From positions 1 through 23,538 of IMG/VR virus record IMGVR_UViG_3300030104_005934: a stretch of DNA of 23,538 nucleotides. One strand, 5' to 3'. Below, piece by piece: positions 2,007 through 22,465 of the stretch. Within the stretch, counting starts at the first letter, position 1. Each line of letters begins with the position of its first letter. Made by a program: the position numbers and the translations under genes. The notes under the pieces were generated by a model. The model saw only the letters and a list, made by a program, of their open reading frames with translations, was not told where the DNA came from and did not search any database. The stretch comes from a virus.

Positions 2007-5000
2007 TTATTTGCTACTTTCAGTTATTTCTGCTGAAACAGTAAACATTTCAACTTTTTCTTTAGAATTATTTTCAAATTTAGCGTTAGCATAGTAACCT
2101 AAAAGATTAGACATGTTAACTATTTTGTTTTTAACAAAGAAACAATAATCTGAAGCTTGAGGCATTGTGCCACCAGTCTCTACCTCTATAGTATCTCCAC
2201 TAATAAAAACAACTTTACCAACTTGTGTAATATTGTTGTTACTATTAAAATATATAGTGTCTCCTTTTTGCATTGATACATTTATTTCGCCAGAAAAATC
2301 TATAAAATTACCATTAACACTTTCAACTACACCTAAACCTTGTATTTCAAGAGCGCTAAAATCCGTTGTTTTATCTACAATAGAATCAACACCTTTAATA
2401 TAGTTAAACCATTTCTTTTCTTTTTCTATAAACTCATTTAAACTACCTTGCGCTTGATCAGTTGTAATACCACTAACATACCAACCGTCTTTTGCTATTG
2501 CGTTATAATATTGTTCATCACTTATACCAGTTGCTGTATCTGTAGCAAAAATATCTATTTTAGATTGACTACCTTCATAAGTTAAAGCGTGAAAACTTTT
2601 TATACTACTAGGTGCTTCGTTTAAAACAACATCAATACTTGAGTTTGTGTATTCTCCATAAAAAGTATTTCTACTTACATTATATTCTTGTCCTTGCACG
2701 TAGAAACTATCAACATGATGCTGATATAATTTACCTTTTTTAACGGTAAAATAATCATTAGCACAGCTTAAACCGTTTTCAGGCACAAATGATTTAAAAC
2801 TAACCCAACCCCTTACGATTTCTTTAAATGAAACTGTTACAGGGTTTTCAGCAGAGTTTACAGTTAAGTTATATTGATCTTTTTTATCATCATAACTTCC
2901 AATTAATTTTCTACTTAACTTTAGGTTGTCTCTAAACCAGTCTTTCATACCAGCGTCAGATATAGGTGTTAACCCGTCTTTTGATAATCTAATAACAGCA
3001 CCTCTTACTTTGTCAGTAAAATAAGTTCTATAAGATTCAGATGCAAATGACTCTGGGTTTTTAGATATACCATATTCACCAACAAAAGGTCTAGACTGAC
3101 CTAATACTCTATTAGTAGCAACTAGCTGTGGGTTTCCATCTGCTTCAAAAACAGCGTCTTTACTTGCTAGTATTTGTAAAACTTTATCTTCACATAAAGT
3201 TATTAAATCAGTGTTTCTAGCATGTAATTTTTGTATACTACCATAAGTTGGGTTTATATCTTTTGTAATTTTTTCACCAGCTATAAATTGATTTAAATTA
3301 TTTACACCGCTATTAGCATTGTATAAACCAGAATATATTAAACCATACTTTCTATGTTCTTCTTTGTAGTTTGAAAACTCTAATGTTGTAGACGCTTTAA
3401 CTCCATTTGCCATAAATGGAAGATTAAAACTATCTCTAACTCTATTTGATTCAACACCGTTTCCAAACGAAAAGCAATTATACCAATTTAAAGTATAAGA
3501 AGTTTTTAAGGTGCTTAAGTTTTCTAAAACATAAATTCTATTTGTGTAAAAACCGTTAATAGCGTCTCCATAAGCACCTTCCCAACCTTGAATAGTTACA
3601 GTTATAGAACTTCCATCTGGCTTATGTATTTTTATTGCGTCTCCAATATTAAGACCTTTCTTTTCATCACCAGGACCAGGTATAATATCACTAACTTTAA
3701 CAGCGTGGCCTTGACCACTACCGCTCGTTTGGCCTGGTAATAGAAACGTTGAACCACCCCAAGCAAAGTTTATATACCAACCAGGTGTACCCACAGTGCC
3801 ATCTCCATTTAAACCAAGCGTGTTAGCGGTACCATTATAACCAACGCTATCAACTGTTGTTTTTGTAATAGAAATACCTGGAGTTGCTGATGATACACTT
3901 GAACCTAATGGTATAGCTATATATTTATTTTCTTGTGTAAAAAACAAAGGATTATACCCACTAGCCTCATAATACACATCTAAAGGTGTGTTTTCTTTAG
4001 GTTCTGTTTCCCATATAGCTGGATTACTAGGCATTACAGCTTCTCTTTCTATTTCTTCAACTATTTCTAAATTATAAAACACAGGCATTATACCAGGCGT
4101 ACCACCTACAATACCCATATCTTCATCAAAAACACCATAACCATGATTAAGCGGGTCTTGTGCATTTAATCTATTACATGAATACTGCGAGTAACCATTC
4201 ATTGTTGGTTGTTTAAACACCATGTTTTGAGCGGTTGTAGGTAAGTTAGTTTTTATATCATGAACAGTTATTTCTAAACTTGTAGCATTTAAATTTAAAA
4301 TAGTTCTATAACCACAAAGATGTAGTCTAAAGTGAGTATTGTGTTCTGTTATTTTCCAAATTAAAAGCTCTTCAAACCCAGCAGCACCATTAAAAATATG
4401 ACCAGCAGCAGCGTTTGAATGTGAATATAATATTAAACCTGTTTTTATTACAACGTTATTACCGTCTGCGTCTGTAGCATTTAAATCATCAACACAAATA
4501 TAACACTTACTACCAGACGTTGCATGAGTTGCTTTAGGAGTTGTTGACTGTGAACCACTATAAGCAGAATGTGCTTTTGTTAAAACAAGCCCTTCTTCTA
4601 TTGGTCCTATTGGCCCAGCAGGATTCCAACTTATAACAGGAAGATTTTGGGAGTTTACAACGGTTAACTCGTAGTTGCTAGTAAAATTTGGTGAAAGTTG
4701 GGCAGATCTTTTTTCCGTGTTAGGACTCCAAGTGCTTTCAACCGTACCATTTGGCCATGTATCACCTGATTCATCTTCAAAGTATGGATTTGTAGGGTCT
4801 TCAAGAACATCTTCCCAAAGCCAATTATTAGTTCCTTCTCGTTTATATCTTATCGACGCATACTGATTATCACCAATAACGCTGTAAACTTCATTTGTAG
4901 GATCTTCTTTAAATCTAAATTTATTACCAGTATTTAAAGCGTTAACAAGTTTTATAGTGTTTTCAATGTCATAGTTATTATTACCACCGTCTGTTCCAAT

Positions 5001-8000
5001 GTTCCAGTAGTTACTTTGACTCATTTCATTACTATGAACATGTAGCACTTTTGTGGCTCTACCCATAGCATCATAGTTAGAGTTTCTTAATATTCCACCT
5101 GCCGCTATATCTAGTTTTAATAATCCAGAACTAGCGCTAAAACCTTGATTTCCTAACGCACCAATAACACCAGCGCCAGCAAATCCAAAATCCATGCCAC
5201 TTAAAGAATTTAAATATTTACGTTTAACTTTAGGACCGTTGTCAATAAACCAAACCGTGTTATTTTCTCTTTCATCTTTTTTCCAGTTATGACTATCTGC
5301 TAGTCTAGCTGGGTTTTGTATATCTTCTTTAGTCCAAGTGTTTACAGAGCTATTAGCTACATATCCAGGTGGTAAAATACCATACCAACCATTACCACTA
5401 TAATCTTGATTAGCTGAATTAGTATCTCTACCAACAGTTATAACTGCTAATTCAAATTTCCAATGAGCACTACCAAAAGCCTGTTTGTAATATTCAGATT
5501 GTGAAACTCCACCAGCTACATCGCCAAAAACATATTGACCAACATTAATATTTGCACCTATATTACCACTAGCATTTGAGTTATACTCTGACATTTCAAA
5601 TTCATTAGGAGCGTGTAGATAGTTTCTAAAATATGGCGCAAATCTACCAAAATCTTCGTTGTATTGTCCTAATGACTGACCGGTTAGTAAAGCTCTATGG
5701 GTTGTTTTATGATTTGAATTCATAGAATAAAGTCTTCTAGACAACAATGTTCTATAATTAGAACTTAAATTACCACTCAGTTCACTGGTTAGTATATTGC
5801 TACCAATAACTCCATCAGCGTTTATTTTTATAAAAAACTTACCGTCAAATTTAGCAGAATTTTCTACTTCATACCTATATATGTTAACAGTAATATTATC
5901 TTGTATAGAACTTACATTGTTTACATCGTCTACAATAAAATTAACATCAGGTCCTAAAACTTTTTCTAAAAATACTGTGTACTGTGAAGACGTTAAAGTA
6001 ACTCCTTGTTGTCCAAAATCACTTTTTATTTTAGTTATTCTATATCTTTCAGAAACTACATTTGTTATTGTGTTAGAAAACTCTATATATAAAACGCCAT
6101 CCTGATCATCAAAACTCGTACTTACAGAATTTGTAAACTCTTCATAGTCCATTTTAAAAGTATTTTTTCCTTCTAATGGAAAAGTATTGTCATTAATGCT
6201 TTGAGAAAATATATTTACAGCTGGAGTAGAAGAAGTGTTGTGTGTTAAACTTTCTATGAGTAATTTTTTCTGTTTTATAAAATCTGGCGCTTCATTTTGT
6301 ATATCTAAAACTTTATATCTAGCTTCTTCTACTACTAAAGTTTCTTTTTCTATACCTTTTTTTAATATTAAAAAATCATCAATATTTACTTTATTTACAT
6401 CTGAAGAAGGAAAAGAAAGCCATATTTGATTATCTTCAGCATTATAAAACCTATCCATAGCCATGTTGTAGTATTCGCCAGAAGTTTCTTTTATAAAAAA
6501 CTTAAAATACTTTAAATCATCTGGAAAGTTGTTATTGTTAAAAGATACTGATATTTTATTTTGTTTATCACTAAAAGCTTTACCTAATTTGTTGGTGGCT
6601 GTAAAATTAGATATTACAGGCGTTTCTCTACCATATTCGTCTACAAAAACAGCACCTATTTGATAGTCTCGTAAAGATTTTATAGAAGGTAAAGGTTTTT
6701 CGCTTATAGATTCACTTAAAATACTAAAATTAAAATCAGGATAATAATCTTCATTATTATATTTTAAATCAAAACCTTGTTTGTAGTTAGCGTACACTAT
6801 TCTACTTCCAACAACTTCTTGTGCTAACGCTACTTTAGGTACGTTATCCCAAGGTCTTATTAGTTGGTTGGCGTTAATAGCTTTATATATTTGCTCGTTT
6901 TTTATAGTATAAGTATCTTCGTCCCAAGCATTATTATTATTTAAAATAGCGTTAGGCGTTATTGTATCAACAACATAAAGATTAGTAGATGTATCCTCTT
7001 TGTATATTATATCTATTTCTTTAACACCATCTGGAATATTTTTCTTAAAATCACTAACTTCAATAGATGTTATTCTATTTGACATACCTAAGTTATAACC
7101 TTTTTTAGGATGGTAATCAAAGTTTCCTGGAACAAAAGCGACTTGAGAATATGGTGATATAGCAGAGTACTCGTTATCCTGATATCTATATCTATATGCT
7201 ATTCTTGGTAATTTAAATTCAAATATACTTAAGTTTTCATCATATCTATCTACTACGTAGTTTAGTTGTGATAAACCAGGTGGGGTGCCTTGTGTTGGAA
7301 GTGGTATTGAAGTAACTCGTACTTTTAAATAAGGATTTAAATTGTCTATTCTACGTATTGAAAAACTATTTACTCTACCTACAAAACCTCCATTATTTAT
7401 ACTAGCACCCTGAAGCATTATTTTGTTATTGTAACTAGAAGAGGGGTTGTAAGGATTATTAGCGTTTAACATTGGGATAGTATAGTTAAGCTGACCAGGT
7501 TCAAATTTAAACGTAAAAGTTTGAACGCCGCTTGTTGTTCTATCGCCAGTATTATAAAGCCTAACATTATGGTTGTGATTTGTTATATTTAAATTAGCTG
7601 CTCCAGTATGAACTTGTACCGAGTACTTACCACTATCGCGCTCTATATCTAAAGTCATTTCATAAGTAGCACCGTAAACAAAATTAATAGTACTACTTGT
7701 AAATTTAGCCCAACTCTGACCACCGCCATAAGCAGTGTCAACATCAATTCTATCTTGAGCAGCGTTGTATACAAAATAATTAGGACCGTGATGTGAAGTC
7801 CAACTTCCCATAGTCGGATTTGTAAAGTTAGGGTTGTTATTTAAAGTATAACCAGAACTAGAACCCATAAAACTATTTAAATGATCTTCTAATATTTTAA
7901 CTTTAAAATTAAAATTAGTTAAAGGAACAACTGGCTGCTCGTCATAATTTTGACCTTCAAAAGCTTTTATTACTAATTCATCACCTACGTTCCAGGACAA

Positions 8001-9638
8001 TTCAAAATCATTATTATCATTTATATCTGTAAAAAGTCTAAGATAAAAAATATCGTTTAACGATAAGTTTACAAAATCATAATCACCGCCGACAATAGCA
8101 TCTTCATCAGAAGAACCAGGCGGGGTAACATGTGTTATTGCTGTATATGTTTCGTTTAAGCTTCTTTGAGTATTTAATTTTATTAATGGAGCTAAAACTG
8201 GTTGTTTTTTAATAACAGTAATATGTTCTTCTTTTATATCAGTTTCTATTTCGTTGTGTTCATTAATAAATTGAGTATGAGTAAAATCAGAGCTAGTACC
8301 TTTTATTGATCTAGGTATATTTATTTTTTTAGGTTCTGTGTAGTTGTCTGTAAAAAACAACATATCATCTACTATATTTATACCTGTTATTAATCTTTGT
8401 CTTGAAAAATTTAAAACTTCATCTGTTGAATCTATCAAAACAGGTGTTATAGTTTTTGATTTATTATCATATTCTACTATACAACTATTAACTTGTGATG
8501 GCACGCTAAGAACTTGTCTAACAGAAATATCTTCAACTACACCATTAAAAGCCCCATCATTATATAAAACTATTTTACCAACATTACCAGATCCTTGTAC
8601 CCATCTTTTAGTGTAAGTTCCAACACTTTCTTCTAGGTGAATATTTGTTTGGGATGGCGTACTGCCTGAGCCGTGATTTGCTAGTATAAATTGACCAGAA
8701 CCACCAGTTGTAATAGTGTATTTTATTTCATACTCATTTCCTTGTATAATTTCAGGTACAGTAACACGAGCGTAGCCATAGTCAGGTTGTGCACCGGCTT
8801 GAAAAACATTGTTGCTAATTGTCCAACTAGTACCAAACCCGCCATATATATCCCAATCGCTGTCTATAAAATTTACAAGTAAATCATTTCCTAAAACTTC
8901 ACTATCCATTGGATTTAGCTCTGATATAGATATACTATTAATACTTAAGCTTTTTCTATAAACTGTTCCGTTAACAAGTTCAAACTGAAGTCTCATTTCA
9001 GTGCTATTGTTATTTGAAGCTTGATTAAATGTAAAAATGTTAACGTATTTATCAGTATTGTTTAAAATGTAATTGCTAGATGAACTATCATTTAAAGGTC
9101 TGTAACCAGAGTTACCAGTGTTAATACCGGCTAAAAATATTTTAATATCACCTTGAGAATCATTGTTTTTAAAATCTTTTATATCAACTTCTACTTTGTA
9201 TCTTTTTCCGTCTTCTAAGTTAAATGTGTTTGTTCTAAATCCCGGATATGTTGTCGGGGTAGCCCCAGGTACAATATTTGAATTAATAACAACACCATCA
9301 CCAGTAAAATTATTAGAAAATGAAGAATCACTAACAAAGTTAGACTCGTCATCAAAATACATGTCTGGCAATATTTGTTTTTTGTTATCTATAAGATAAT
9401 AAAGCTTATCGTTTTTTTCATCTGAAACGCTACCTACACAAAAAGCATCATCTCCAATAAAATTTTGGTTTTGAACTAATGTATTACCAAGTATATTTTG
9501 CACTGTACCAACGTCAGATTCTTCTGATGTTGACACTTGTATGTTCATTGCGTCTCTATATTCACCGTTTGGAACAAGTCTTTCATCAAGATCTTTGTTC
9601 ATTTTACCACCGGTAAACTGATTCTTAATCTCTGGCAT
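2007..9638 (-). CDS. Giant tail nozzle / stabilisation protein (T7 gp12- or P22 gp10-like), with inserted carbohydrate-binding-like domains
   Basis: At 2543 residues this is the largest gene here, uninterrupted. It opens with FTGGKMNKDLDERLVPNGEYRDAMN (about residues 8-32) and then GTVQNILGN, the beginning typical of nozzle proteins that form a beta-propeller ring at the distal end of short tails. The propeller signature resumes with IVEYDNKSKTITPVLID (387-403) and ITGINIVDDMLFFTDN (417-432). Near the C-terminus is VRGAVIRLSKDGLTPIS (about 2205-2225), again typical of the family. Between these blocks are inserts with the look of galactose-binding-fold (CBM-like) modules: about 94-243, 250-376 and 598-766. 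T7 gp12 is near 800 residues, so this protein is roughly three times as long. The middle third (about 1300-1950) is Gly-, Asn- and Thr-rich with no motif I can name. The gene starts three bases after the TAG stop of the adaptor gene. It probably closes the DNA channel and may also touch host glycans through the inserts. The nozzle call is firm on motifs and order; the glycan role is inferred. Confidence 0.8.
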   Translation of the reverse strand: MPEIKNQFTGGKMNKDLDERLVPNGEYRDAMNIQVSTSEESDVGTVQNILGNTLVQNQNFIGDDAFCVGSVSDEKNDKLYYLIDNKKQILPDMYFDDESNFVSDSSFSNNFTGDGVVINSNIVPGATPTTYPGFRTNTFNLEDGKRYKVEVDIKDFKNNDSQGDIKIFLAGINTGNSGYRPLNDSSSSNYILNNTDKYVNIFTFNQASNNNSTEMRLQFELVNGTVYRKSLSINSISISELNPMDSEVLGNDLLVNFIDSDWDIYGGFGTSWTISNNVFQAGAQPDYGYARVTVPEIIQGNEYEIKYTITTGGSGQFILANHGSGSTPSQTNIHLEESVGTYTKRWVQGSGNVGKIVLYNDGAFNGVVEDISVRQVLSVPSQVNSCIVEYDNKSKTITPVLIDSTDEVLNFSRQRLITGINIVDDMLFFTDNYTEPKKINIPRSIKGTSSDFTHTQFINEHNEIETDIKEEHITVIKKQPVLAPLIKLNTQRSLNETYTAITHVTPPGSSDEDAIVGGDYDFVNLSLNDIFYLRLFTDINDNNDFELSWNVGDELVIKAFEGQNYDEQPVVPLTNFNFKVKILEDHLNSFMGSSSGYTLNNNPNFTNPTMGSWTSHHGPNYFVYNAAQDRIDVDTAYGGGQSWAKFTSSTINFVYGATYEMTLDIERDSGKYSVQVHTGAANLNITNHNHNVRLYNTGDRTTSGVQTFTFKFEPGQLNYTIPMLNANNPYNPSSSYNNKIMLQGASINNGGFVGRVNSFSIRRIDNLNPYLKVRVTSIPLPTQGTPPGLSQLNYVVDRYDENLSIFEFKLPRIAYRYRYQDNEYSAISPYSQVAFVPGNFDYHPKKGYNLGMSNRITSIEVSDFKKNIPDGVKEIDIIYKEDTSTNLYVVDTITPNAILNNNNAWDEDTYTIKNEQIYKAINANQLIRPWDNVPKVALAQEVVGSRIVYANYKQGFDLKYNNEDYYPDFNFSILSESISEKPLPSIKSLRDYQIGAVFVDEYGRETPVISNFTATNKLGKAFSDKQNKISVSFNNNNFPDDLKYFKFFIKETSGEYYNMAMDRFYNAEDNQIWLSFPSSDVNKVNIDDFLILKKGIEKETLVVEEARYKVLDIQNEAPDFIKQKKLLIESLTHNTSSTPAVNIFSQSINDNTFPLEGKNTFKMDYEEFTNSVSTSFDDQDGVLYIEFSNTITNVVSERYRITKIKSDFGQQGVTLTSSQYTVFLEKVLGPDVNFIVDDVNNVSSIQDNITVNIYRYEVENSAKFDGKFFIKINADGVIGSNILTSELSGNLSSNYRTLLSRRLYSMNSNHKTTHRALLTGQSLGQYNEDFGRFAPYFRNYLHAPNEFEMSEYNSNASGNIGANINVGQYVFGDVAGGVSQSEYYKQAFGSAHWKFELAVITVGRDTNSANQDYSGNGWYGILPPGYVANSSVNTWTKEDIQNPARLADSHNWKKDERENNTVWFIDNGPKVKRKYLNSLSGMDFGFAGAGVIGALGNQGFSASSGLLKLDIAAGGILRNSNYDAMGRATKVLHVHSNEMSQSNYWNIGTDGGNNNYDIENTIKLVNALNTGNKFRFKEDPTNEVYSVIGDNQYASIRYKREGTNNWLWEDVLEDPTNPYFEDESGDTWPNGTVESTWSPNTEKRSAQLSPNFTSNYELTVVNSQNLPVISWNPAGPIGPIEEGLVLTKAHSAYSGSQSTTPKATHATSGSKCYICVDDLNATDADGNNVVIKTGLILYSHSNAAAGHIFNGAAGFEELLIWKITEHNTHFRLHLCGYRTILNLNATSLEITVHDIKTNLPTTAQNMVFKQPTMNGYSQYSCNRLNAQDPLNHGYGVFDEDMGIVGGTPGIMPVFYNLEIVEEIEREAVMPSNPAIWETEPKENTPLDVYYEASGYNPLFFTQENKYIAIPLGSSVSSATPGISITKTTVDSVGYNGTANTLGLNGDGTVGTPGWYINFAWGGSTFLLPGQTSGSGQGHAVKVSDIIPGPGDEKKGLNIGDAIKIHKPDGSSITVTIQGWEGAYGDAINGFYTNRIYVLENLSTLKTSYTLNWYNCFSFGNGVESNRVRDSFNLPFMANGVKASTTLEFSNYKEEHRKYGLIYSGLYNANSGVNNLNQFIAGEKITKDINPTYGSIQKLHARNTDLITLCEDKVLQILASKDAVFEADGNPQLVATNRVLGQSRPFVGEYGISKNPESFASESYRTYFTDKVRGAVIRLSKDGLTPISDAGMKDWFRDNLKLSRKLIGSYDDKKDQYNLTVNSAENPVTVSFKEIVRGWVSFKSFVPENGLSCANDYFTVKKGKLYQHHVDSFYVQGQEYNVSRNTFYGEYTNSSIDVVLNEAPSSIKSFHALTYEGSQSKIDIFATDTATGISDEQYYNAIAKDGWYVSGITTDQAQGSLNEFIEKEKKWFNYIKGVDSIVDKTTDFSALEIQGLGVVESVNGNFIDFSGEINVSMQKGDTIYFNSNNNITQVGKVVFISGDTIEVETGGTMPQASDYCFFVKNKIVNMSNLLGYYANAKFENNSKEKVEMFTVSAEITESSK

Positions 9639-9641
9639 GTA

Positions 9642-11207
9642 CTAGTGTTTTATTTGTTTCGACTTACCTCTAAGTATTTGAGTTAATTCTTCTAATTTAA
9701 TATTAGATAATCTTAATTTTGCTTGCCTTGTAGCCGCAAACTTTTCTTTTTTAAATCTTGGTGCTAGCTGTTGGTGTATTGGTAAAGAAGATGTAGATAT
9801 TATAGCGTGTGCAATATGTTTATACATAGCTTCTTCAGCGAATTTATGAACTTGCATTTCTTCTTCGGTACCAAGACTATCACTTATATAGTCTAAGATC
9901 ACAGTTTCTCCTGAAATATTAGAGCTAAAATGTATTCTACCAAGTCTTGGGTCTATATAAAAACTACCATTAGTTTGAGAGTGCGAAGGCTCTAAACCAT
10001 ATCTTTCACCTTCATTTGGCCAATATACATTATTTTCATAGTCTTGGTATTCATTAATACTATTTTCAGAAGGATCTTGTGATTTGTAATTATTCCAAGT
10101 AGAAGAGTTTTTTTCGTTACCAACAGGTGTTATTAAAGTTGAATAATTTGAAGAAGATGTTAAGATTACATTATCTACGGAATTAGCTAACATAGGCACA
10201 CCATCACCACCTAAGTTTTTAGCGGAATGCTGTGCGCTTGATGCTACTGTAAAATCAACAAACATTACAATAACAACATAAACAGTATCTACGTTTTTAA
10301 CATTAATATTTAATAATTCTTTAGTTGCAGAAGTTGAACCAGCCGTATTTGGCCCAACCCACTCAACATAACTAGGTTGTTCACTGCTTGTTACTAAATC
10401 AAATATTGAAGCGTTAACATTGTTACTTCTTAAGCTTTCAGCCCCAACACCAGCGTTGTTTGAGTTATTTATATAATTGTTTTCTGGTACTTGAGTACTA
10501 ATACCGACTCTTACTGTACCAATATTTATAGCACTTATAAATTCAACAGTATCAGCTACACCGTCTGCTTTTATATCTAAAAAATCCATATCAGAAACAT
10601 CAATAGCCTGATAAGCAGTATTTACCCTACCGTTTTGATACGCGCTAGCGCCTGTTCGAGTATGGTAGCTTGTTTTTAATTTACCATCGCTAATCGCCAT
10701 ACCACCTTCATACAAATTTGTTAAACTGTTAGTTGGTGTTATAGTTTGCCAATCATCAGTAATTGGTGTTGAAGAAAAATCATAATTTTTTACTAAACCA
10801 GAAACAGAATCTACGGTAAAATCGTAAATACCATCACTATCTTGTTTTATTTGAAAAGGATTATTTGTATCTTTTGTTGGGTATAACATGTGTTTTATAC
10901 CAGCGCTATCAACAGAAGATATTTTAGTATAATTAACATAATCATGAGGAAGAGGCATTACAAGTGTTGCTGGAACATCTATTTGTTGTGACTTTATTGA
11001 CTTAAATGTATCAAATGAAAATTCTTGCAAAGCCCTCATTGCATGAAATTGAATATCTAATTTATTTATTTTAGGTATTATTTTATTTTTACCAACATAA
11101 GCAACTTCAAATTGAGCTATTAGCTCTTGTAAAGATATAAATTGATAATTACCAAAGTCATTACCTTGATAATAATTTCTTTGTGTAGTATTGTCTAATA
11201 ATCCCAT
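9642..11207 (-). CDS. Tail adaptor / ring protein with an inserted beta-sandwich domain
   Basis: This 521-residue protein lies between a second adaptor-like gene and the nozzle gene. Residues 1-135 form a helical start (ISLQELIAQFEVAYVGK, then DIQFHAMRALQEFSFDTFKS) and a PLPHDYVNYTKI block. Residues 355-521 hold FYIDPRLGRIHFSSN and a helical C-terminus (EEMQVHKFAEEAMYKHIAHA) ending in a basic tail. These two parts look like one compact adaptor protein of a type recurrent in marine phage contigs. Residues about 137-353 look like an insertion: NYDFSS, ISDGKLKTS and a C-terminal VDNVILTS resemble a carbohydrate-binding (galactose-binding-fold) module. Position suggests a ring joining portal and nozzle, comparable to T7 gp11 or P22 gp4. 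That function comes from order rather than a catalytic or fold-defining motif. The gene begins four bases after the upstream stop and ends in TAG. Confidence 0.7.
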   Translation of the reverse strand: MGLLDNTTQRNYYQGNDFGNYQFISLQELIAQFEVAYVGKNKIIPKINKLDIQFHAMRALQEFSFDTFKSIKSQQIDVPATLVMPLPHDYVNYTKISSVDSAGIKHMLYPTKDTNNPFQIKQDSDGIYDFTVDSVSGLVKNYDFSSTPITDDWQTITPTNSLTNLYEGGMAISDGKLKTSYHTRTGASAYQNGRVNTAYQAIDVSDMDFLDIKADGVADTVEFISAINIGTVRVGISTQVPENNYINNSNNAGVGAESLRSNNVNASIFDLVTSSEQPSYVEWVGPNTAGSTSATKELLNINVKNVDTVYVVIVMFVDFTVASSAQHSAKNLGGDGVPMLANSVDNVILTSSSNYSTLITPVGNEKNSSTWNNYKSQDPSENSINEYQDYENNVYWPNEGERYGLEPSHSQTNGSFYIDPRLGRIHFSSNISGETVILDYISDSLGTEEEMQVHKFAEEAMYKHIAHAIISTSSLPIHQQLAPRFKKEKFAATRQAKLRLSNIKLEELTQILRGKSKQIKH

Positions 11208-11211
11208 TTAT

Positions 11212-12081
11212 TTATTGTTTTTCTTGTTGAATTTGAGCACCTGTTAGTTGGGCACCTACTTGTGTTAATTGTGGTTTTTCTATAGCAACACCAGCTAAAG
11301 TTAATATTCTATATACTAACTCTGTTTCTTCTGAAGCGTGTAATTCAAAATCAGTAGAAGAAGTTGAATTATATAATGGTTTGTCATTTACAACTACATA
11401 AGCCCAATTAGGTTTTTTAGGTTTTCTTGTATAAAATATTTGTATTAAATCTGGATAAACTCTTAAATTACCATCATTACCAACAAAAGTCTTTTCAGAA
11501 CCAGTATAATTATTGTCTTGGTACCACCTCGTTGGATAGGGATGTATTTGAATACGCATTGCTACACCATCATCAAACATACTGTAAGTTGGGGTTGTAT
11601 ATCGATGTTTTCTGGAAGGACTCTCCCCATCTCGTTTTAATAGCTTTGTACTATTATGTAGGGTTAATTTATTACGATCAATATATTCTGCTTCTACACC
11701 TGTATTAAAACCTTGGCTTTTGTAAGTAACCGTAATTTTTCCAAGTCTATATAGATCAGCACCTCTTTGTTCAGGTTCAGATTTATGCATATGATTATAT
11801 AAATTCATCCAACCAGCACTATTTACAAGTTCACACCTGCTTGGTGAATAAGTTTGAAATAAATTAGTTTTTTCTCTTAAGTTTTTTATTTTATCCGCGT
11901 AAATCTCTGTAGTACCAGGTAGTCTTTGAAACTGGTCTAGATCATAAAAATATTGCTCAAATATTTCCATCTGAGCATGATCGGCTAATAAGTTAAACTC
12001 TTGCGGAGTTATATAACCTCTTTGTTCTTTGTTAGCTAGAACTAAAACTTTTTGATATACTGCGTCTATACTTATTGCCAT
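11212..12081 (-). CDS. Putative head-tail adaptor / ring protein
   Basis: The 289-residue product starts MAISIDAVYQKVLVLANKEQ and continues with PQEFNLLADHAQMEIFEQYF, a helical N-terminus I recognise as recurrent in marine phage structural clusters. Conserved-looking blocks follow: SRCELVNSAGWMNLYNH (about 80-96), IQIHPYPTRWYQ (about 176-187), and FELHASEETELVYRILTLAG near the C-terminus. A helix rich in Gln closes the protein. It sits four bases before the other adaptor-like gene and after the capsid and 278-residue genes, the place where portal-binding ring proteins are normally encoded. No transmembrane or secretion signal is present. The upstream leader (TAAAAAATAATT before the ATG) is A/T-rich without a Shine-Dalgarno. 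It could equally be a head-closure or neck protein. The exact ring position cannot be decided from sequence alone. Confidence 0.65.
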   Translation of the reverse strand: MAISIDAVYQKVLVLANKEQRGYITPQEFNLLADHAQMEIFEQYFYDLDQFQRLPGTTEIYADKIKNLREKTNLFQTYSPSRCELVNSAGWMNLYNHMHKSEPEQRGADLYRLGKITVTYKSQGFNTGVEAEYIDRNKLTLHNSTKLLKRDGESPSRKHRYTTPTYSMFDDGVAMRIQIHPYPTRWYQDNNYTGSEKTFVGNDGNLRVYPDLIQIFYTRKPKKPNWAYVVVNDKPLYNSTSSTDFELHASEETELVYRILTLAGVAIEKPQLTQVGAQLTGAQIQQEKQ

Positions 12082-18157: not shown

Positions 18158-20371
18158 TTATTTTATTATTTGTGAATTATTTCCTGCATTATTATACTTG
18201 GAAATATTTATGTTTAATTTTGGTTTTTCAACCTTTGGGTTTGGTGCGTATAAATGCCTATTGTTTGCCATTATAGCTAAACCAGAACTTATAGTTGCAT
18301 CAAATTTTGTTCTTTTGTTTATATCAAATTTAGCCCAATCGTTTAACAACTCATTAAAATATAAATCACCAACGCTACCATCTTGCCGTAATCCAACGTG
18401 ATCTTGTATGTACATTTCAATTGCTGCTGCGTGGGCTTGTTTTATATCTTCGCTAGAGTTAGGTATACCACCTATTTCTTTTTCTGCAACAGATAATTTA
18501 TTCCAAACTTTATCTGGTCTATTCATACTAAATCCTCTGTACCCTCTACGTCTTAAATAGTACAACAACCTTGGTTTATTGTTCTCTGCTAGTATTGGCA
18601 TACCATAAAAAACTAATGCCATTAATACATCTTCAAAGAATATTTCAGCTGTAGGTGGTCTTGATAAGTATTCTAAAAAGAAGCTGTTCGCAGGAGCGTC
18701 CTCCATACTAAACCTGGTTAAGCCGTGTAATGCTCCTTTAGATCCTTCTCCATCTACAGTCCCTGATATATCATAAGAGTCACAACCAAATGCTCCCATG
18801 TGTTCATTACCAGGATATTTTATACCGTTTTTAAGTACCACTCTATTTTGTAATCCAGATTTTGGAACCCAACTAACTTTAAATCTACCTTTTACATCTG
18901 GATAAAATATAACTTGAGAATCTTTAACTCCATTTACCCACTGAAAATTACCAGTTGTAATACCAAGTGTTCTAGACATCTCTTCGTTGTAATCTATTTG
19001 CTCGTATATTTTTGTTAAATTAAATATACTGTTTTTTGTTTCATCTCTAAACGCATGCTCTTCAGTTCTAGGAAATTGTCTGTAAAATTCATTTAAAGCG
19101 TCTTGATCATCTTTTAAACCATCTACTTCGTTTTGCCAATTATCTACTACACCTATATCTATTAGTTCACCATCTGGGGCAAACATGTCGACGTTAGGAG
19201 TAGAGAATACTGGAACTCCGTACTCGTCAATAAATCCTTCGTAGTTCCATTCCATTGGGATAAACAAAGAATATAAACCAGATTTTGTCTGACCATTTCT
19301 ATTTCTTTTAGTGACATCTGATGCATTGTATAGTTTTTTAAAATTGTCTCCACCTTTATCTAGTGCGTTTGAAGTTGAGCCCATCATACATTTACCTATA
19401 ATCCTACTACCTAACCGTAAACATGTTTTTGTAACTCTCCAGTTATTTAAAATATTATCGGGTCTTTCCCATTTGCCGCTTTCATCATGTACTAATAACG
19501 CTAGTTTCTCACCATCATAACTATTATCTCCTGTATTTTTCCAGTCAATAGTTGTATCTAAACCTTCTAGCTCTTCTAGCTTTTCGTTGCTAGTTATTTT
19601 TTTTCTTGTAAACTTGCTAGCTGGCACTCTATATGCTAACTCTGTTTTAGGTCTATCCATACCATCTTGAATAGGTTTAAAGAAAAATGGATAATTTATA
19701 CTAATTGGTACTACTTTATCCGTAAACATTTTTTTAGCATCAGCACCTGTTTTAGATAGTATACCATATCTACTATCACTTGCAAGAGTAGCTAAATTAA
19801 CTGTTTCGGCAGAACTCATAAAAGAAAAACCACTACGTCTGTTTTTTAAATAACACATACCATAGCATCTTTTGTCTGCCTTGCAGGCTTCCCAAAATAT
19901 AAAGAACAATCTATTTGCTTCTCTAAAATCAGGCGCACCAACGTCAATTTTACTCCACTGTAAATACATGTAGTGCGCTCCTACTATATAAGTTGGTTTA
20001 CCGTTATTCATAAACCAAAAACCTTCTTCTCTACGTTTAAATTCTTCGTCTATATAGCTGTACCACTGTTCTTTTTGTTCTTCTGGATACGCTCTCCAAT
20101 CAAATATGTTTTTTAACCTAGCTAGCTCTTTTGGATACTCTAATTTTTGCCACTTGTTTTTAGGGTGCACGTACACTGATTTCGGTTCAGCCGGCAACCC
20201 AATTCGCAGATTTTGAATCTCCACCACTTGTCCAATTTTTCCAGTTTTAGAGATAACCACGATGTCATGTTCTTTATCATATCCATATTTCCATTTTTTA
20301 GATTTGTTAAGACGACTAATAGTCGTTCGTTTAATAGGTTCTATTATTTTAACTAAACTTTGCTCGTACAT
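18158..20371 (-). CDS. terL: Large terminase subunit (ATPase and nuclease)
   Basis: This 737-residue packaging motor protein has an N-terminal ATPase and a C-terminal RNase H-like nuclease. LKNRRSGFSF (175-184) sits where Walker A belongs but lacks the usual GK[ST], with arginines instead. ALLVHDE (291-297) is a clear Walker B with the catalytic Asp-Glu pair. GSTSNALDKGG (331-341) resembles the coupling motif. Nuclease acids are plausible at D531/D534 (GCDSYD), E596 and D691 (FDATISSGLAIM). The start overlaps the upstream stop by one base (TAATG), so translation is probably coupled to the candidate small subunit. An N-terminal extension of about 110 residues precedes the ATPase, making it longer than T4 gp17 (610). 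The identification is strong. A coupled partner gene lies upstream and the portal gene downstream. Confidence 0.93.
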   Translation of the reverse strand: MYEQSLVKIIEPIKRTTISRLNKSKKWKYGYDKEHDIVVISKTGKIGQVVEIQNLRIGLPAEPKSVYVHPKNKWQKLEYPKELARLKNIFDWRAYPEEQKEQWYSYIDEEFKRREEGFWFMNNGKPTYIVGAHYMYLQWSKIDVGAPDFREANRLFFIFWEACKADKRCYGMCYLKNRRSGFSFMSSAETVNLATLASDSRYGILSKTGADAKKMFTDKVVPISINYPFFFKPIQDGMDRPKTELAYRVPASKFTRKKITSNEKLEELEGLDTTIDWKNTGDNSYDGEKLALLVHDESGKWERPDNILNNWRVTKTCLRLGSRIIGKCMMGSTSNALDKGGDNFKKLYNASDVTKRNRNGQTKSGLYSLFIPMEWNYEGFIDEYGVPVFSTPNVDMFAPDGELIDIGVVDNWQNEVDGLKDDQDALNEFYRQFPRTEEHAFRDETKNSIFNLTKIYEQIDYNEEMSRTLGITTGNFQWVNGVKDSQVIFYPDVKGRFKVSWVPKSGLQNRVVLKNGIKYPGNEHMGAFGCDSYDISGTVDGEGSKGALHGLTRFSMEDAPANSFFLEYLSRPPTAEIFFEDVLMALVFYGMPILAENNKPRLLYYLRRRGYRGFSMNRPDKVWNKLSVAEKEIGGIPNSSEDIKQAHAAAIEMYIQDHVGLRQDGSVGDLYFNELLNDWAKFDINKRTKFDATISSGLAIMANNRHLYAPNPKVEKPKLNINISKYNNAGNNSQIIK

Positions 20372-21667: not shown

Positions 21668-21697
21668 TTTATTTAATTTAAGTTAATTTAATTTATT
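21668..21697 (-). promoter_or_regulatory. AT-only intergenic leader with tandem 9-bp repeat
   Basis: Within this 30-base gap the plus strand carries TTAATTTAA at 21673-21681 and again at 21683-21691, separated by one G. It is one of the few non-overlapping junctions in the upper half of the cluster, so it could hold a promoter or a translation leader for the chaperone-terminase block. A Bacteroidota-type -7 box (TAnnTTTG) is not evident. AT-rich sequence easily gives such repeats by chance. Confidence 0.25.
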
Positions 21698-22465
21698 TTA
21701 ATATTCTAACCCAAGTCTTAATTCTATTGGATTTTTTAATATTAGATGTTCGTCGTCATCTATTTGTGCACTAACATCTTTTACTGTCATTGTTGTTGCG
21801 CTATCTACAGATACAACCTCCATTTCAACTGTACCTGTGTGACCTATTACTATATCACCAGGTTGAAAAACATTTCTAGGATCTGTGCCATCTGTTGTTA
21901 TTTGAACTGCTGCTGTAGAAGCCGCTTGATTACTACCCATGTTAAGAAGTACATCTGTACCATAATCCTGTGCAGCGCCGTGGGCAGTTGCCATCATGTA
22001 TATTGTTTGAAAACCTGTCCTAGTAACATGTGGTTCTCCTTCTAAAAATACAGTAAAACCTCCGTCACCTACATAATCACCGCCATCAGCCTTACCACCA
22101 GCTTGATATGTATTATAAGTAGTGTCTCCATTTAACATAGTTTCTGACGCGTCTATAGCAAAAAAACCTATTAAGTTTCTTCTAAATGTAGCCGCAATAG
22201 CTGTTGAACTAGCAGCATGAGCAGTTAAATCAGCTGGTGCAACGCTGTTTATACCTTTAGCAAAGTAAAGCTCTATATCCGAATTATTACCAGTGCTACC
22301 GTTTATACCTATTAACGTAAAAAATAGCGATCTTAACTCAACACAACCTACGGGTATTTCTATTGGTACCCAGTTAAAAAGTATATCATTACCACCACTA
22401 GCACCCGCAAACGTATGAATAATATCTGGTTTTACTGTTTTTAAAATTTTATTTCTTGAAATCAT
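21698..22465 (-). CDS. Beta-rich orphan protein, possibly a virion decoration protein
   Basis: A 255-residue Gly-, Ala- and Thr-rich protein without transmembrane or signal segments. The first 60 residues have alternating hydrophobic strands (DILFNWVPIEIPVGCVELRS). The C-terminal third (about 200-255) contains FQPGDIVIGHTGTVEMEVVS, then TTMTVKDVS and ELRLGLEY, which looks like a small SH3-like or OB-like barrel. The overall composition resembles phage head decoration or fibre-base proteins. It lies away from the other virion genes, between the holin and the coiled-coil gene. The start follows an A-rich leader (AAAAAAATG) without a Shine-Dalgarno. I do not recognise a named family. The gene itself is well supported by length, codon content and spacing. 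Confidence 0.6.
   Translation of the reverse strand: MISRNKILKTVKPDIIHTFAGASGGNDILFNWVPIEIPVGCVELRSLFFTLIGINGSTGNNSDIELYFAKGINSVAPADLTAHAASSTAIAATFRRNLIGFFAIDASETMLNGDTTYNTYQAGGKADGGDYVGDGGFTVFLEGEPHVTRTGFQTIYMMATAHGAAQDYGTDVLLNMGSNQAASTAAVQITTDGTDPRNVFQPGDIVIGHTGTVEMEVVSVDSATTMTVKDVSAQIDDDEHLILKNPIELRLGLEY

Follow-up and report, generated by a model that had tools for sequence, protein, structure and literature searches.

The window, meaning the whole stretch of DNA analyzed here, is a linear viral fragment, 23,538 bases long, whose genes run on the minus strand in the order GroES-like protein, terminase, portal, scaffold-like protein, major capsid protein, two small virion genes, a 521-aa virion protein, a 2543-aa muzzle protein, and a 464-aa protein, with the scaffold-like and major capsid names assigned by gene order. 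Judging from cultured relatives, the host would be a marine bacterium of the Bacteroidota. Upstream of the terminase, the related contigs L105 (1503–3065) and L107 (6563–8128) have an apparent GroEL of their own (520–521 aa). Between the window and its relative L052, divergence is strong in the middle of a 289-aa virion protein and over the initial ∼65 residues of the protein after it (11434–11918, minus strand; ORF 11212–12081); the 289-aa protein is 53% identical between the two while the surrounding DNA is ∼90% identical, and by this sequence comparison the diverged stretch is likely a recombination tract. In Cellulophaga phage phi38:1, endosialidase-chaperone and tail-protein genes lie upstream of the terminase, and the window's fragment stops close to that region. 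On contig L013, a fibre-like gene of 711 aa precedes one of 264 aa, both of them also upstream of the terminase and beyond the stretch covered by the window. The first-pass annotation had pointed out that no separate fibre gene is visible; given that the 23.5-kb linear fragment is truncated and that these fibre-like and tail genes fall outside it, this carries no weight.

The large ORF at 2007–9638 (minus strand) matched phrog_14478 (E = 9e-126) and contained the Pfam crAss_MUZ_C domain (PF25729; 2394–2675, minus strand; 31.7 bits versus a cut-off of 27), and an alignment of its N-terminal relatives matched residues 13–157 of the crAss001 muzzle gp44 (hhalign, P = 3.4e-5, probability 72%). A PDB sequence search with the muzzle gave no match and did not find gp44. 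Given the PHROG match, the muzzle C-terminal domain, and the N-terminal alignment, this ORF is, on sequence grounds, a crAss-type muzzle protein of the gp44 type. The crAss muzzle is thought to govern genome release. The name nozzle protein, given previously, suits the N-terminal part, which corresponds to a T7-type nozzle, and not the protein itself; the part of the muzzle that joins the ring and forms the propeller resembles the T7 nozzle (PMC10172136; Bayfield et al., 2023). Directly upstream of the muzzle gene, the 521-aa virion structural protein (9642–11207, minus strand; phrog_13977) would by its position be a ring protein; a sequence match to the crAss001 ring proteins was not found, and assignment to a particular ring protein failed.

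Within the muzzle, residues 1300–1860 (4059–5741, minus strand), the central, crass-domain part of the protein, make up much of the remaining extra length relative to phi38:1 and vary among other relatives too. The last ∼100 muzzle residues form a separate small gene (∼120–140 aa) directly after the muzzle in many relatives (L009, L010, L013, and others), and are fused to the muzzle in the window, L001, L003, L006, and L020. Genes slightly downstream of the muzzle in L020 (∼21691–21792) and L045 (∼19857–19949), outside the window's contig, had weak matches to Peptidase_S74 (endosialidase chaperone).

Three modules are located in the N-terminal part of the muzzle, all encoded on the minus strand. 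M1 (residues 86–242; 8913–9383) is inserted in a hairpin between YYLID and IVEYDN, M2 (residues 243–379; 8502–8912) follows as the second insert in the same hairpin, and M3 (residues 590–768; 7335–7871) is inserted between KVKIL and LKVRVTSI. The strand CIVEYDNKSKTITPVLIDS (residues 386–404; 8427–8483) after the first insertion site is conserved in relatives with and without inserts. The motifs and coordinates from which the first-pass annotation had recognized three inserts were right, with YYLIDN at residues 80–85, IVEYDNKSK at 387–395, and GKRYKVEVDI, GNEYEIKYTI, GATYEMTLDI, ISVRQV, and FSIRRI all present in the ORF, although the Trp- or Asn-led start ascribed to each module was a loose description.

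We examined whether these segments are insertions by measuring, in a set of 80 homologous loci, the distance between conserved anchors flanking each site, where site 1 is the turn between KLYYLID and CIVEYDN (generally (I/V)xEYD) and site 2 is the M3 site in the region that follows. Site 1 spans 303 aa in the window and 139–194 aa in 8 of 80 homologues, and elsewhere, where measurable, it is 4–76 aa long and holds no module. Site 2 spans 207 aa in the window and 3–83 aa in most homologues, with module-sized inserts in 13 of 79 (192–222 aa in 11, 417–425 aa in two). Query coverage likewise dropped from ∼80 loci in the flanks to 1–20 inside the modules. The phi38:1 muzzle (1324 aa) lacks M1, M2, and M3, and crAss001 gp44 has only a short turn in place of M1 and M2. 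As most homologues have a short turn at the insertion sites, the possibility that these segments are integral to the protein in all homologues is excluded, and sequence comparison confirms M1, M2, and M3 as insertions. M1 homologues sit at the same site in L045, L059, L052, L094, L086, and L097. Another loop, immediately following site 1, holds different inserts of tens to ∼400 residues in L008, L015, L036, L050, and others; these follow the xVFVD strand (window residue ∼404) and have a repeated small beta-barrel-like pattern, GMxVxG... TxVxxI.

An empty site for M2 was found in L052, whose muzzle start is 93% identical to that of the window and whose DNA is 92–96% identical to the window on either side of the first site. 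L052 runs straight from the end of M1 (SISELNPE) into SQANSCIVEYDN, with M2 exactly missing, in frame. Together with the site lengths among the 80 homologues, this supports the earlier proposal that a single ring protein at the tail tip holds three inserted modules. Given that M2 was found at this place in none of the 80 homologues and in no contig besides the window's, the more economical explanation is that the window's lineage gained it, although L052 may instead have lost it.

The first-pass annotation had proposed structure prediction and a fold search for the inserts, and for M2 these gave a beta-sandwich that matches CBM structures. The AF2 model of M2, built from the alignment of its own family, was mainly beta (pLDDT 86.6, pTM 0.82); a mixed alignment of all modules had placed M2 relatives on M1 or M3, and was left out of folding. 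In Foldseek searches against the PDB, the best matches included a phage tailspike domain (5w6h), a hyaluronan-binding module (4d0q), a porphyran-binding CBM (8xmz), and CBM16, CBM22, CBM4, and CBM29, with E-values of 1e-5 to 1e-4, and of 3e-5 to 1e-4 for several CBM structures, probability 1.00, and TM 0.5–0.6, and the list also held non-carbohydrate jelly rolls such as Eph receptors. Predicted viral proteins structurally matching M2 include tail fibres and minor tail proteins. Given the TM values and the presence of non-carbohydrate jelly rolls among the matches, this fold is no proof of sugar binding. The AF2 model of residues 1–830, built from full-length relatives, had a mean pLDDT of 61, with M1 and M3 beta-rich at moderate to low confidence (M1 pLDDT roughly 60–80). 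Its best PDB matches included tandem CBM22, Vip3 C-terminal domains, and the Bacteroides surface glycan-binding protein SGBP-B, all of them whole-model matches that are not assignable to a single module. The modeling thus supports M2 as a CBM-like jelly roll, while for M1 and M3 the carbohydrate- or galactose-binding-like fold proposed for all inserts is only suggested by these lower-confidence, whole-model matches, and both are probably CBM-type jelly rolls. By sequence, Pfam CBM_4_9 (PF02018) had no match in the window or 16 related records at E ≤ 1 and none by hmmscan, other Pfam models had no match on any of the three modules, and sequence searches of PHROGs and the PDB returned no family for the modules.

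Profile–profile comparison indicated that the M3 and M2 families are related (P = 3e-6), and M1 less clearly so. Among themselves, M1, M2, and M3 are 22–33% identical (z 1–4), and tandem duplication of one module was rejected given these values. M2-type modules also occur elsewhere: L022, L030, and L083–L088 carry one in the gene immediately upstream of that for the muzzle, and L049 carries one close to the C-terminus of its muzzle, beginning with the same SEVLG segment, so that this module type is reused in three protein locations. M2 relatives were not found in cultured phages, and none were confirmed in 84,980 prokaryote genomes. A tree built from the conserved core placed the window with L001–L004 (100/100), with cores 67% identical. 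M1 shares only 24–28% identity (z about 0–4) with the first-site module of these sisters, and M3 only 26–30% with the sister modules; M1 comes closer to the modules of L045 and L097, at 43–48% identity, even though these two loci share only 49–50% core identity with the window. Given such low identities to sisters despite the 67% core identity, the modules appear to turn over far faster than the muzzle core, through either replacement or much faster divergence. The patchy distribution of M1-type modules suggests exchange between lineages; alternatively, an ancestral M1 may have been replaced in L001–L004, which would also be a replacement.

A further module slot is located in the upstream virion protein. 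Gap lengths between its conserved ends point to an insert of ∼230 aa in the window (10023–10853, minus strand; slot span 276 aa), with the gap measuring 279 aa in the window, ∼200 in many relatives, and 48–59 aa in most insert-free relatives, and at least three unrelated module types occur there. The phi38:1 counterpart (283 aa) has no insert. We consider it conceivable, at somewhat less than even odds, that at least two virion proteins of marine crAss-like phages contain fixed slots for modules, which recombination refills from a common stock of CBM-like domains, and that host-surface recognition resides on the gating muzzle and is changed by cassette exchange. The slots would then be, with the same reservation, the propeller hairpin, the following muzzle domain, the muzzle C-terminus, and the middle of the upstream protein.

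Given their tail-tip location, fold, and rapid turnover, the most likely role of the modules, as far as the models indicate, is contact with host surface glycans. Our main reading, to which we assign a probability of roughly 0.6, is that the muzzle gained plug-in accessory modules that would bind host surface or capsular polysaccharide. Two surface loops would hold the modules, with the N-terminal propeller hairpin carrying M1 and M2 and the following domain carrying M3. If the muzzle is hexameric as in crAss001, up to 18 modules would be displayed at the tail tip of each virion, in addition to those of the upstream protein. They could bind the surface or capsular polysaccharide of the marine Bacteroidota host via many weak contacts, which would draw the muzzle up to the membrane ahead of its opening, and a module swap would alter which glycan is tolerated or recognized while leaving the gating core unchanged. 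Glycan contact at the tail tip had been proposed before; it is a reading of predicted fold and location, with Pfam CBM_4_9 giving no match.

It is unlikely, though worth weighing, that the modules instead play a purely structural part as jelly-roll or Ig-like domains without a ligand, lending the muzzle stiffness or fastening it to the protein upstream. The crAss001 muzzle already has Ig-like domains, for insertions at other places in the muzzle the only stated effect is on surface properties (PMC10172136), and sequence searches matched the modules to no CBM family. However, a clamp with a structural role should be conserved, whereas module type differs between close relatives at 67% core identity and one module is absent from the 93%-identical L052. 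Less probable still is that the modules have a protein on the host surface as their ligand instead of a sugar, in the manner of receptor-binding jelly rolls such as the Eph ectodomain: in Foldseek, the matches close to the CBMs include Eph receptors along with further jelly rolls that bind proteins, but carbohydrate-binding modules or tailspike domains make up the majority of the best M2 matches. An assembly chimera was also considered for M2, given that M2 at this site is known from a single contig and that L052 joins the end of M1 directly to the downstream strand, but is very improbable, since the insertion is in frame and ends at loop positions, the L049 module starts with the same SEVLG segment though elsewhere in the muzzle, and M1 and M3 are independent of this question. 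Exchangeable CBM-like domains in the N-terminal part of the muzzle represent defined, expressible pieces for receptor-contact tests. In the literature searched, coverage of which was incomplete, we found no report of CBM-like modules in the muzzle propeller region and the neighboring virion protein with an empty-site pair.

Variation in muzzle length by insertion is already known: the crAss001 muzzle gp44 has 1371 aa, and insertions within the crass and IG2 domains are reported to change muzzle length, although the propeller region is not among the variable sites listed there and carbohydrate is not mentioned in the text (PMC10172136). The window muzzle belongs to the same family as gp44 (Pfam PF25729, N-terminal profile match), and both genes are directly downstream of a gene for a ring-protein-like product, but gp44 is much shorter than the 2543-aa protein of the window and has the short turn at the M1/M2 site. 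A cultured homologue is gp097 of phi38:1 (Callevirus, Pervagoviridae), which has the same gene order and aligns over residues 1–83 and ∼800–1120, and differs from the window muzzle in its length and in lacking the three modules as well as the upstream insert. The structures of CBM families 4, 16, 22, and 29, 8xmz, and 4d0q share the jelly-roll fold with M2 in Foldseek, but at 8–16% identity and with no sequence-family match. The best known analogue of such a modular muzzle is the evolved Dit of lactococcal phages, in which CBM inserts restored adsorption to exopolysaccharide-bearing hosts (PMC10688798), and lactococcal phage CBMs bound host cells (PMC6669499). As in the window muzzle, carbohydrate-binding-type inserts occur there in a conserved tail-tip ring protein of some phages, are absent in close relatives, and are also present in other virion proteins. 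A CBM-type insert that close relatives lack, as in the evolved Dit, is likewise indicated in the window by L052, the site lengths, and the M2 fold, as an analogy only, with a muzzle rather than a distal tail (Dit) protein as the carrier. Tail type and hosts differ as well, and binding and adsorption effects were shown for Dit, whereas the window is known from sequence and models. The comparison suggests that the domain decoration known from siphophage Dit proteins may also occur in the tail of a crAss-type podovirus.
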